Shown here piece by piece: positions 3,977 through 22,973 of a stretch of DNA of 64,000 nt. Location: the NCBI GenBank assembly GCA_030295235.1, contig AP026124.1:124001-188000 (forward strand), in the 5' to 3' direction. Each line of letters begins with the position of its first letter. Within the stretch, counting starts at the first letter, position 1. Origin of the DNA: Fistulifera solaris (lineage: Eukaryota > Bacillariophyta > Bacillariophyceae > Naviculales > Stauroneidaceae). The position numbers and the translations under genes were made by a program. The notes below the pieces were generated by a model. The model searched no databases, was not told where the DNA came from, and saw only the letters and a list, made by a program, of their open reading frames with translations.

Positions 3977-5582
3977 ATGAAGGCTGTCTATTTGCTCTTC
4001 TTTCTCTTTGGAGTAGCTTGCTCTCAAGTGCTCGAACAAATCGGAGACATTTTCCCCATTCGATTTCGTTCTAATGGAGTTTCCGACATTAAGGGAACGG
4101 ATACCCCCTTGGGGAAATCTTATGTTTTGACACACCCCGGCGCTACCTACATCGCATTGCGCTTTTCCAAACTCAACTTACTAGCTGGTGACAGTATTGA
4201 GGTGACCGATGCCAGCGGCGGTCAAGGCTACACGCTCACTGGACGCGGCAAAGGAAAGGGAGCCGCCTTCTGGTCGCAACATATCAAGGGCGACACCATT
4301 GTCCTCAACACGATGATTACGAGCAGGAATTGGCGAAGAAGTAGCATCTTTGACATCAATCAGTACGCGGCCGGTTTCGAGCCACTAACTGAAACCATTT
4401 GTGGCGCCGATGACAAGGCGAATGCGGCATGCTACACGTCGACTTTCCCCACTGAATACAGCAAGTCGAGAGCCGTGGCCAGATTACTCATCAACGGAAA
4501 CAGTCTATGTACTGGATTTCTTGTGTCAGGATCGAACCACCTGTTGACCAACAACCACTGTATTAAAACAGCTGCTGATGCGCTGAACACGGATTACGAG
4601 TTCATGAGCGAGGCGCCTCTGTGTGGGTCATCAAACACGCAACTGTCGCACCGAGGAGTAGTTTACGATGGTGCCACCTTCATCAAGACCAGCGCCAACT
4701 TAGATTACACATTGGTGCAGATTACTTATGGCAATCCATCCAGTCTCTATGGCTTCATGGAACTTGATGATAAGCCAGCAGTTGCCGGTGGCCAAATTTA
4801 CATCCCTCAGCACGCGGGCGGCAAGGCGAAAGAATTGGCTATTTTTAGCTCTCAGAGCGCCGATGCTGGCGACGGTTATTGTCACGTCAATGGAGTTGGA
4901 CAGGCAGGATGCGGCGGAAGTGTAGGCAGCAACAATCTTTTCTACTTCTGCGACACGGAAGGAGGCAGCTCCGGCTCTCCTGTTGTTTTCTCGATCGACC
5001 AACAGGGTTGTTGGTCTTCACAAGTGCGGTGGATGTACATCCGGCAATCATGGCACTAGTGCCGATCTCATTCGAAAAGATGTAGGCTCTGCGCTCCCGC
5101 CTTTGGCCGTGTCCGCTCCCGCTCCGGTCCCTGTTCCAGTTCCGGCTCCTGTTCCAGCACCGGTTCCCGTCCCAGCACCCGTTCCAGTACCCGTACCTGT
5201 ACCAGCTCCGGTTCCCGTACCTGTTCCTGTTCCAGCGCCGGTTCCCGTCCCAGCACCCGTCCCTGTGCCAGCACCTGTTCCGGTACCCGTCCCTGTTCCA
5301 GCACCAGTTCCCATCCCAGCACCCGTTCCAGTTCCAGTACCCGTCCCTGTGCCAGCACCTGTTCCGGTCCCGGTCCCTGTTCCAGCACCGGTTCCAGTTC
5401 CGGCACCCGTTCCTGTGCCGTCGCCAGTCAAAGCCCCTGTCCCTGTAGCATCTCCTGTTCGCACTCCAACAGCCCCGGTCCCAGCTCCTACTTCCCGTGT
5501 CTGTTTGAGACAAAACTCACGCTGCCTCAGCGGGTCTAGTTGCTGCAGTGGTGTGTGCAAGGTCAACCGTCGATGTAAATAA
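3977..5582 (+). CDS. Secreted S1-family serine protease with PV-rich linker and knottin-like C-terminus, copy 1 (one frame change)
   Basis: Domain order: signal peptide [17 protein letters not shown]; a ~100-residue beta-rich N-terminal region ([22 protein letters not shown]); a trypsin-fold domain with catalytic His in LLTNNHC, Asp in LDYTLVQI and Ser in EGGSSGSP; a long Pro-Val-Ala linker; and a C-terminal module with spacing C-x6-C-x5-CC-x3-C-x5-C, as in inhibitor cystine knots. The layout resembles secreted lysyl-endopeptidase-like S1 enzymes. The frame changes at a T4 run at 4986-4989, just after the catalytic Ser. The intact paralog at 21540 indicates one extra T. With that allowance the gene has 535 codons. 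Copy 2 carries the same extra T. It could be a pseudogene, a shared sequence error or a slippage site; the downstream frame is still open and conserved for ~200 codons. Confidence 0.8.
5113..5426 (+). repeat. Minisatellite encoding Pro-Val-Ala linker, copy 1
   Basis: Imperfect short tandem repeats based on the hexamers CCNGTN/CCAGCA encode alternating PV and PA dipeptides. The antisense strand gives long spurious open frames of Gly-Thr and Glu-Leu repeats, which are not genes. Confidence 0.85.
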
Positions 5583-7095
5583 ATCTGCGACAGGCTTGCC
5601 GCCGTTAATCACAAAGGCTACGTTTTGGCTGTTTCCGTGATCGATCCAATTCATAACTCTCCTCATATAATGATAGTAATTTCATAGAATTCTTTTTCAT
5701 TCGTGAAACTGTCTTCGACGTCTTTTGAACAATTCCTCGATCATACGTCCTTTCATTTGTCAGGCACTCAGGTACCAAGAACTGATGAAAGTGTATTGTT
5801 ATGAATCGTGTTCTTTCTTCTGCGCTACGTTGCCTGTCGACAAATTGAATCCTTTTCCTCCACCCTGCCGATATCATATTGCCTAGTCACCCGCTTGTCT
5901 TCTCTACGTTATAATAAGCGATTCTCTGGCTCATACTGTATAGGAGACGCTTTAACTGCGTGAGGTCGTCTTCGACGTGATGAGATAAGTAAGGTTCGCG
6001 TATCATGTGATTTTCAACCGAAAGGATCACAGAAAAATCTTACTCTAAAGAAGAGGTCTGAAAGGTTGTGTGTTGTGCGTCATGCAGAGGTTAAAGAGAT
6101 TTACAAGACAAGAGAAAACCAAAGTTCACCAAACCATTCATAATCTCAATTTGTTGTTGTCCTTGTTATTCTCATTCATCTTTGACGATCGCGATGGTTT
6201 GGCGGTCGATGATGATTGATGATGGATTCATTCTTCATCATGATGGTCGCAATGCGATACGCGATTGCGCCAGTTTTGACTCAATAATATAGTACTATCA
6301 TGAAAATAGTAAACCACTTTTAATCCGACTCAAATAGTTTTCGGTCACGGATTTTGCCCTCACAACAAGTTTTATCTGCAATGCTTTGTTGAATACAGTG
6401 GAAACTAAGCTCCGCAATGCCAAAACATACTCAAGAACGATAATATGACAACCGAGAAGTCTATTTTCTCAAATCTGCAATTGTTTTCACATCATGAATA
6501 ATGATCCAACTATAATTGATTTTCGGGCGTGCTATCGCGAGCAACGATGATCGATAATCGACGATGGTGATTGATATCGCTCGACGCAGGCGCAATTGAT
6601 TTGATTCCTTCGCTTAACATCGAAAGCATTCCTTTGTCTTGAAGTCTTTGCAAAGTAGAGGAGGACGGAAGACCGGAGGCCTCGCGCTGGTTCAATTCGT
6701 GGGTTTGTTGTGTTCCTTCGCTTATCAAGTCTATTGGCTCGTGGACGTCGGACTTGACTGTATTAGTTTATGGTAGTCGTAGTCTCCGTACCAGTTAATT
6801 CAAAGGTCATCGCAATAAGTCATTAGCCTTAATGGTGTCATGATTTCATGATTACAAAATATTATATAAGTAATAATAGTCATTATGTATAATTGTTCTC
6901 TTCACAATTCACAAACCTTCGCATCGGTCTTTCCGATTTAAAGTCTTTACTCTCTCTACCTGCGCTGACGTAAAACATCGTCTTTCGCGAAGAAACCATT
7001 GAGAAACCCCGACGAAGAGGGGCTCCAATTTCGATCCGAAGATAGCAACATTTTTGCAATAACTTTCTTGCAAACCAAAAGCCGTGAAATTGAAG
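5583..7095. other. 1.5-kb spacer between protease copies 1 and 2
   Basis: AT-rich, with many GATGA/TCATC runs around 6205-6250. No supported gene on either strand. The sequence immediately before the ATG of copy 2 is unrelated to that before copy 1, although the coding parts are nearly identical. Confidence 0.5.
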
Positions 7096-21539: not shown

Positions 21540-22973
21540 ATGATTGTTTTCTATTTCCTTTTCCTTCTCTTGGGCTTCTCGTCGGCACAATCGCCCGAAA
21601 AAGTCGGTGATACTTACTCTATTCAGTTCCGCTCGAGCGGTGTCTCTGATATTGAAGGCAACGAGACGCCTCTTGGTCAAAGGTTCATCTTGACTCATCC
21701 CGGCGCAACGTACATTGCCTTGTACTTTTCCAACCTAGCTCTCGCGAAAGGTGACACCATTGAAGTGAGTGATGCGAACGGTGCACAAGCTTATATACTC
21801 ATTGGAAATGGCAAAGGAGAGGGATCTCCCTTCTGGTCACAGCATATCAAGGGCGACACGATTGTGCTCAACATGATGACTACGGGAAGAAGTCGACGGA
21901 GCTTCTTTGAAGTAAATCAATATGCTGCTGGCTTTGAATCCTTGTTTGAAACGATTTGCGGAGTTGATGATAAAGTGAATGCCGTGTGCTACGTCTCCTC
22001 GTTTCCCACGGCGTACGGCAAAGCTCGTGCAGTCGCACGATTGCTCATCAACGGCAATAGTCTCTGTACCGGCTTTCTCGTGTCGGGCTCCAATCATTTG
22101 TTGACGAATAATCACTGCATTCAGAATGCAACGGATGCATTGAATACCGATTATGAATTCATGAGCGAGGCTCCTTTTTGTTCATCTGCGAATGCACAGC
22201 TCGCGTACCGAGGAACGACCTATGACGGTGCTACCTTTATTCAAACCAATGCGGCGCTCGATTATACGTTGGTGCAGATTAATAGTGGGAATCCATCCAG
22301 CTTGTATGGCTTCTTGGAGCTGGAAAATCAATTGGCGGCTACTGGTGAACAAATTTACATCCCTCAACACGCGGGTGGTAAAGCAAAACAGATTGCTATC
22401 TATAGTACGGAACCGGTTGATGCAACCAACGGTTTTTGTCAAATCAACAACGTGGGAAACACTGGCTGTGGTGGAAATTTAGGGAGTACAAATGTGTTTT
22501 ACTTATGCGATACGGAAGGTGGCAGCTCTGGATCTCCTGTTATATCCATGGTGACAAACAAGGTAGTGGGCCTCCATAAATGTGGCGGTTGTACGAACGG
22601 CAATGATGGTACGAGTGCTCATCTTGTTTGGAATCAAGTGGCTTCCGTCTTATCTCCCGTAGCACCCGTTCCTGTCCCGGTCCCTGCACCCGTTCCTGTG
22701 CCGGTCCCTGTCCCCGTTCCTGTCCCGGTCCCTGCACCCGTGCCTGTGCCGGTCCCTGTCCCCGTTCCTGTCCCGGTCCCTGCACCCGTTCCTGTGCCGG
22801 TCCCTGTCCCCGTTCCTGTCCCGGTCCCTGCACCCGTGCCTGTCCCGGTCCCTGCACCCGTGCCTGTGCCGGTCCCAGCACCCGTACCTTCGTGCTTGGC
22901 TCGAGATGGACGTTGCACTTCTGGGTCTCAGTGTTGTAGTGGTGTATGCAAGCGCAATGGTCGCTGCAATTAA
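21540..22973 (+). CDS. Secreted S1-family serine protease with PV-rich linker and knottin-like C-terminus, copy 5 (intact)
   Basis: The only fully open member of the cluster (477 aa) and the reference for the others. Signal peptide residues 1-17 ([17 protein letters not shown]). Catalytic triad by motif: His192 (LLTNNHC), Asp241 (DYTLVQI), Ser330 (GGSSGSP). Asp324, six residues before the Ser, corresponds in position to trypsin Asp189, so cleavage after Lys or Arg is inferred. Ten or more Cys in the catalytic part suggest disulfides. The linker, about residues 375-450, is almost pure Pro and Val with periodic Ala and is encoded by a 48-nt minisatellite. The C-terminal module [25 protein letters not shown] fits the inhibitor-cystine-knot spacing; this assignment is from Cys pattern alone. 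Expected to be secreted or attached to the cell surface. Confidence 0.9.
22663..22889 (+). repeat. 48-nt minisatellite encoding Pro-Val linker, copy 5
   Basis: At least three near-perfect 48-nt units (each encoding [16 protein letters not shown]-like sequence) in tandem, with C-to-G variants. Likely to vary in length between alleles. Confidence 0.85.

Follow-up and report, generated by a model that had tools for sequence, protein, structure and literature searches.

The nearest published parallel to the locus described here appears to be a group of papain-like proteases in the stramenopile Aphanomyces euteiches. That report describes modular enzymes clustered within 50 kb, in which the protease is conserved, the linker is disordered and often made of PT repeats, and the C-terminal module is variable, being CBM1, CAP or none (PMC10084794). 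Here we analysed a stretch of 64,000 nucleotides of Fistulifera solaris (AP026124.1), hereafter the window, whose own numbering is used for all positions below. It carries a cluster of genes for S1 proteases that end in a candidate knottin, a module of 26 residues with six cysteines. Our reading, to which as a whole we give an even chance, is that these are secreted modular S1 proteases of Planctomycetota/Phycisphaerae-type ancestry, arranged in tandem in a diatom-like nuclear genome, and that the C-terminal knot docks the enzyme on an extracellular surface.

A scan of the window revealed six modules with the exact spacing C-x6-C-x5-CC-x3-C-x5-C, which span 5502-22967 on the + strand and start at 5502, 8699, 9941, 17881, 20498 and 22893. 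The same Cys pattern appeared in none of 200 order-1 Markov sequences with the length and dinucleotide make-up of the window. In all six modules exactly one residue (K, R or N) stands between the last Cys and the stop codon, and five of the six are preceded by a signal-peptide-like start (judged by eye), a prodomain, a trypsin-like domain with its H, D and S motifs, and a Pro-rich linker. An earlier note on this stretch had proposed five linked genes and one remnant with a common plan and Cys spacing. The six exact modules, five of them with the full plan and one in a remnant, agree with this, and the boundaries it gave, 3977 and 22973, are correct for the first and last gene; an uninterrupted frame, however, is found only in copy F. 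The members of the cluster are the following.

Copy A, 3977-5582, + strand: signal peptide, prodomain, S1 protease, PVPVPAP linker and knottin; frame break near 4987; Trypsin_2 match at 1.2e-15.
Knottin module of copy A, 5502-5579, + strand: net charge +6.
Copy B, 7096-8779, + strand: same plan as A; TAG at 7714-7716; the frame break of A, here near 8106; nearly equal to A from the start codon through the linker.
Knottin module of copy B, 8699-8776, + strand: net charge +5; diverged from that of A despite near identical protease parts.
Copy C, a remnant, 9646-10021, + strand: Pro/Thr-rich linker and module (9941-10018, net charge +6), without a protease domain; the frame changes after about 9882.
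Copy D, 16550-17961, + strand: protease, linker and knottin (17881-17958, net charge +8); frame break near 17368 in a G run; Trypsin_2 match at 7e-8 (first piece).
Copy E, 18894-20578, + strand: protease, linker, CGDG module, linker and knottin (20498-20575, net charge +2); frame break near 19175; Trypsin_2 match at 9e-10 (second piece).
Second Cys-rich module of copy E, 20153-20320, + strand: located between the two linkers.
Copy F, 21540-22973, + strand: the only uninterrupted frame, 477 amino acids; Trypsin_2 match at 3.1e-18.
Parts of copy F, by residue: signal peptide about 1-17; beta-rich prodomain about 24-131; S1 domain about 155-371; disordered VPVPAP linker about 375-449; knottin 452-477.
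Knottin module of copy F, 22893-22970, + strand: net charge +4.

Copy F exceeded the Pfam cut-offs for Trypsin_2 (67.3 bits, cut-off 27.6) and Trypsin (30.8 bits, cut-off 20.6), and pieces of A, D and E also scored above the Trypsin_2 cut-off; the scan covered F and these pieces, with copy B outside it. The catalytic motifs of F lie at residues 189-193 (TNNHC), 240-245 (LDYTLV) and within 323-333 (GGSSGSP), pointing by motif to H192, D241 and S330, and equivalent motifs occur in A, B, D and E, with the variants TNRHC and LDFALV in copy D. The full-length AlphaFold2 (AF2) model of F had a mean predicted local distance difference test score (pLDDT) of 69.3, with blocks of 60-91 over the S1 domain, 44-55 over the linker and 79-85 over the knot. 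When this model was submitted to Foldseek, the top match in the Protein Data Bank (PDB) was the lysyl endopeptidase 1arb (E 1.5e-9, target template-modelling score 0.67), and 1qy6 was matched at 7.7e-8. The closest solved relative by sequence was the glutamyl endopeptidase 1p3c (8.5e-6), and the protease profile A3 found nothing in the PDB at E<=0.01. The DT...SGS and VG-[LV]-H positions, at which T and H set Glu specificity in the V8-like enzymes, align with 1p3c, while the best fold match is a lysyl endopeptidase. By Pfam, catalytic motifs and predicted fold, the window enzymes are putative S1 (trypsin-fold) serine peptidases, and we presume that they are secreted and active.

Next, we examined the fold of the terminal module. 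An AF2 prediction from the six module sequences gave block pLDDT values of 84-89 over residues 11-35 (predicted template-modelling score 0.39). Foldseek returned 23 matches to this model at E<=10, none of them at E<=0.001, and nearly all were cystine-knot peptides of venoms or sponges; the best was protoxin-1 (probability 0.80 but E 0.54), and the list included one Conus peptide titled as a novel cysteine framework and one engineered disulfide-rich peptide. A comparison of the module profile with the PDB gave 14 matches at E<=1 (best 4.3e-5), 13 of them of 25-45 residues and one of 82, which are named as venom or other disulfide-rich peptides and most of which we take to be inhibitor cystine knots (ICKs). 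The knottin fold proposed in the earlier note is therefore supported, as a prediction, by profile, AF2 and Foldseek (with weak E-values). The likeness to ICK peptides is one of fold and spacing alone, and says nothing on toxicity. We rejected the module as a member of a known Pfam or NCBIfam family, given that nothing lay above a curated cut-off: none of the six window and five bacterial modules scanned alone reached one in Pfam, the closest score being that of Toxin_21 for a bacterial module (L075; 19.3 versus 21 bits), and NCBIfam matched nothing across the module in the eight proteins compared, six of them bacterial and two from the window.

We then compared four window proteases with one genome per bacterial and archaeal species. 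The scan matched 33 stretches, of which 19 were confirmed, and the top eight all belong to Planctomycetota. The best relative (L001) was matched over residues 16-353, that is, prodomain and protease, with 53% identity in the best segment. A tree built from 27 rows joined the window copies into a clade with 100/100 support; they grouped with 12 Planctomycetota rows at 100/100, and stood beside L001, L002, L004, L005, L007 and L008 (Phycisphaerae/Planctomycetota) at 87/88. Copies B and C are not among its rows, and D and E entered both the tree and the structure alignment as separate pieces; L006 was omitted because its frame is unreadable, L040, L109, L110, L114 and L115 are second fetches of included loci, and the weaker matches L042-L069 were unused. 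With profile A3, 30 of 392 genomes of the phylum matched at E<=1e-3 and only G001 and G210 below 1e-100, and in the class 6 of 248 genomes matched at 1e-20; because so few genomes reach these scores, the close protease subfamily is rare. The protease is also present in Acidobacteriota, Aminicenantes, Kangiella and others. Protease and knottin scans of viral contigs gave 21 and 27 pattern matches, respectively, none of which was confirmed.

These comparisons make a common ancestry of the window proteases with the bacterial proteins well supported. The direction of transfer, from bacterium to alga, we only infer, since the compared collections contain no eukaryote; it is favoured because many bacterial proteins bear the module and the protease is found in several other bacterial groups as well. 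Of the Phycisphaerae relatives, L008 has the exact module at its C-terminus, and the tail of L004 is a 6-6-0-2-6 variant. The earlier note had regarded the protease-knottin combination as unfamiliar in diatoms, and our literature search (titles and abstract openings, with few subscription journals) found no diatom or planctomycete paper on such a protein, but the combination itself is present in these bacteria.

To follow the module we used a final knottin profile of nine rows (A5), among them the G001 and G004 modules. It matched 17 places in 11 of 248 Phycisphaerae-class genomes at E<=1e-3, G001 and G004 being among the 11 and three of the 17 being rows of the profile itself. Two earlier profiles had been weak: A2 (six rows) matched 7 of 7 genomes at E<=10, only three of them below 1e-3, and A4 (eleven rows) matched 32 of 392 genomes at E<=0.05, with only G001, which had itself supplied rows to the profile, below 1e-8. 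At 13 of the 17 places the module is the literal C-terminus, where a single K or R separates the last Cys from the stop codon. The remaining four are three modules in pilin-like open reading frames (ORFs), with about 12-14 residues after the module, and one in a 60-residue ORF with two residues after it. By Pfam, the 13 C-terminal carriers include four S8 subtilases (L070, L134, L136, L137) and three S1 proteases (L008, L071, L146); the others are L139, which has an HExxHxxxxxH motif and matches metzincins weakly, L145, which is an FG-GAP protein, and a further four that are Cys-rich (L135, L138, L140, L141). A further match in G001 (L147, E 0.0075) is S1-like by reading, with Trypsin_2 just below the cut-off, and has three residues after the last Cys. 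We also assembled 16 bacterial tails (the 13 together with L075, L004 and L022), chosen because they end in the module, one K or R and the stop; the window loop lengths are exact in eight of them.

The pilin-like assignment of L142, L143 and L144 (one ORF; Phycisphaerae class) was made by eye, L143 being without a Pfam match; they carry the related six-Cys module shortly before their end, and from them the knot might also be displayed on surface fibres. In Acidobacteriota we inspected five of nine matched loci: four end likewise, and in one the module is internal. In those four (L148, L149, L150, L152) the related knottin module is C-terminal, and a single residue follows its last Cys. No match to A5 was found in 249 Pseudomonadota genomes, which is weak as a negative.

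Copy E provides what we consider the strongest single sign that the plan arrived whole. Its second Cys-rich module (CGDGICD...FCCGCGGINPVGC, 20153-20320) resembles modules found in seven bacterial proteins, at 37-57% identity over 51-62 residues and with BLASTP E-values of 1e-16 to 1e-7 against this small set of chosen proteins, and all seven end in a knottin (five exact, one near and one variant). To judge from this likeness, copy E would keep all the parts of the bacterial plan, and A, B, D and F would have lost the CGDG module.

The range of carriers bears on what the knot may do. One of the options put forward in the earlier note was that the knot inhibits the protease to which it is fused. 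Peptides with a cystine knot are able to lock proteases of the trypsin fold, and laboratory-selected knot peptides are described as binding the active-site region of HTRA1 (PMC11111691). Nevertheless, the bacterial module occurs on S1 and S8 enzymes, whose catalytic folds are unrelated, as well as on proteins in which no protease domain was recognised, and the prodomain present in these enzymes could itself do the inhibitory job; we consider self-inhibition highly improbable. A stronger competitor is a structural end cap that binds nothing and shields the C-terminus and the long flexible tail from proteolysis. Such a cap would suit the strict C-terminal place of the module, one residue from the stop in all six window copies and at most of the Phycisphaerae places, as well as the protease identity of 7 of the 13 C-terminal carriers and the retention of every Cys in the six window copies while the loops vary. 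Against it, the module is also carried by FG-GAP and small Cys-rich proteins with no obvious need for a cap, and five of the seven readable relatives in the same protease subfamily do without it, so that we regard the end cap as unlikely, and rank it second to docking on an extracellular surface, which our assessment places first.

The presence of the module on varied catalytic domains, and its retention in an alga with another export route, favour docking over inhibition or a bacterial export signal. We propose that a modular exoprotease gene may have been acquired horizontally and then duplicated in tandem in the alga. The stable C-terminal knot, basic in the window copies, would keep the enzyme, once released, attached to an anionic extracellular surface, which might be that of mucilage, the cell wall or particles, acting as binding modules do for other exoenzymes, and the Pro-rich linker would serve as a flexible arm between enzyme and knot. 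The net charge of the window modules, +2 to +8, is in line with an anionic target. A wider version, possible but offered tentatively, is that Planctomycetota and Acidobacteriota use a C-terminal cystine-knot tag, finished by a single basic residue, to dock extracellular proteins in general, and that the diatom took over a tagged protease whole, lengthened the Pro-Val arm, made the tag more basic and multiplied the gene; conversion would then homogenise the proteases while the tags stay diverse, leaving one enzyme on several surfaces.

Divergence within the cluster differs between the parts of the proteins. Leaving out the near-identical A-B catalytic pair, the pairwise rate of nonsynonymous change (dN) was 0.27-0.62 in the module versus 0.14-0.32 in the prodomain and catalytic part. 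Relative to the synonymous rate (dS), dN/dS was 0.18-0.67 in the module, over only 26 codons and in the 10 of 15 pairs that were computable, none of which showed a sign of positive selection; in the prodomain and protease it was 0.04-0.16 in 7 of 13 pairs (A-B left out, the other five saturated in dS), and these parts are under purifying selection. The module thus varies more than the catalytic domain as a rate, as the earlier note had stated, but its comparison with recognition parts was not borne out, since the dN/dS of the module is below 1.

The faster change of the module is also what one would expect if the knot were a peptide freed by proteolysis of the linker to act as an antimicrobial or a signal, a role that a compact basic cystine knot on a long exposed linker, resembling small free peptides by profile, might well fill. 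However, the alignment of the six copies has no conserved cleavage site before the first Cys, the persistence of the module on unrelated enzymes suggests that it works attached, and the venom-peptide likeness extends to fold and spacing and to no Pfam family at cut-off. We find release quite improbable, and hold to docking as the preferred role.

Copies A and B illustrate how the parts can diverge separately. Compared over 3970-5482 and 7090-8680, they have 93-100% identity per 60 alignment columns between roughly the start codon and the linker's end, falling to 0-85% in the repeat-linker stretches through gaps, and they are diverged in the upstream flank, in the module (62-65% in two blocks) and in the downstream flank. 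The ends of this conversion-like tract coincide with domain borders. The pattern is likely explained by gene conversion that spared the module, and such conversion would also copy the frame break that the two genes have in common.

Several observations weigh against the reading of a bacterial-type protease with a docking knot. The module or its variant is present in only two of the seven readable genes of the Planctomycetota subfamily (L001, L002, L003, L004, L005, L008, L041), the other five carrying different tails, several of them Cys-rich, and it was found in none of eight protease-holding genomes outside Planctomycetota (A5, E<=0.01; a ninth handle in this check led to G001, which matched). 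In the tree, the Planctomycetota row of Scalindua (L010) falls outside the group, with a Desulfuromonadales row, and the tree itself has a midpoint root and no eukaryotic rows, the compared collections being bacterial and archaeal. Acidobacteriota have related modules at a similar frequency, though with lower scores (A5 matched 8 of 199 genomes), so that the knottin by itself does not single out the donor group. The 16 bacterial tails are less basic than those of the window (mean +2.1, range -2 to +5, versus +2 to +8), and charge may not be the principle common to both. CBM1 modules bind through an aromatic face; the six window modules contain one aromatic residue in total and have no match to the CBM_1 profile, which makes a sugar platform of this type unlikely from their composition. 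Finally, four of the five gene copies are interrupted as assembled.

The interruptions in A, D and E are one single-base frame break each, in or beside homopolymer runs; copy B has a break in common with A and, in addition, the in-frame TAG at 7714. Three other genes of the window, located on the - strand, served as controls. The hemB gene (47968-49240) is split over two frames, whose matches to the Pfam profile ALAD adjoin (13-228 and 214-317). The lon gene (38555-41282) has three single-base breaks, and its pieces, in several frames, match the substrate-binding, AAA and Lon_C domains. The third, a chlD-like gene (59510-61848), has one single-base break between a Mg_chelatase match and a von Willebrand A piece slightly below the cut-off; we read this pair of domains as chlD-like. 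All five control-gene breaks are located at homopolymers. Because these normally needed genes break alike, assembly error is the simpler account, and the sequence suggests that the frame breaks are probably for the most part of this origin; the TAG of copy B is a substitution, unlike the single-base homopolymer breaks. Both hemB and lon contain intron-like gaps, that of lon running from GTGCG... to ...CAG. Bacterial contamination of the window was rejected on account of this intron-form gap and of Ty1/copia-like pieces nearby.

If the breaks in A, B, D and E, the TAG in B and the truncation of C were taken at face value, the cluster would be mostly dead, with four pseudogenes and F as the only working copy, an outcome compatible with any role of the knot. 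This is set against the controls, with the same type of break at the same type of site, and against the sequence downstream of the breaks, which keeps a low proportion of nonsynonymous (pN) relative to synonymous (pS) differences (0.13 and 0.79 for E versus F) and in which linkers and modules stay open. We judge a mostly dead cluster unlikely. Pseudogene calls in this window need care, as the assembly suggests homopolymer errors.

Elsewhere in the window, proteins with a repeated domain (FNLWNDALATGDS ... HHHSSVMPE), which look NTF2-like, are encoded at 23162-24193 (- strand), 32367-34324 (+ strand) and 37429-38340 (+ strand). At 12680-15931 (+ strand) a 797-amino-acid ORF with no Pfam match above cut-off is followed by a 221-amino-acid ORF that matches the fungal tRNA ligase phosphodiesterase domain at 2.4e-5; the two are perhaps one split tRNA ligase gene. 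Retroelement pieces of Ty1/copia type, named from their translations, lie in several frames at 25471-29216 (- strand). Rfam and tRNA scans of the window gave no matches.

If our reading of the cluster is right, a knot of 26 residues that lies outside the curated families searched would be a portable element of exoproteases, and of further extracellular proteins, in bacteria, and would have reached an alga along with its enzyme and an accessory module. It would provide a stable tag of natural origin whose docking role can be put to the test, and the cluster would be a clear example of a complete modular exoenzyme common to an alga and to algae-associated kinds of bacteria.

Compared with known systems, the window enzymes have the trypsin fold, as modelled, in common with the glutamyl (V8-like) and lysyl endopeptidases of S1 (1p3c, 1qy6, 1arb); we know of no C-terminal knottin in those enzymes. 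The module matches ICK peptides of the protoxin-1, U3-scytotoxin, omega-conotoxin and atracotoxin types in profile and predicted fold, with six Cys of which the third and fourth are adjacent; those are free peptides, whereas the window module is the C-terminal domain of an enzyme and belongs to no Pfam family at cut-off. The Phycisphaerae S1 proteases L008 (JAJDDV010000051.1) and L004 (CP070827.1) are built like the window copies, with prodomain, S1 domain, CGDG-type modules, C-terminal knottin and one K or R before the stop, but have several CGDG-type modules where the window copies have the VPVPAP linker, and no tandem cluster of five in their neighbourhoods, which were looked at without detail. 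Finally, the cluster of Aphanomyces euteiches differs in its C1A cysteine protease, its tails from Pfam families and its plant-pathogen host genome, in place of S1 and a knottin; yet in that stramenopile, as in the window, clustered genes combine a conserved protease, a disordered linker and a variable C-terminal module.

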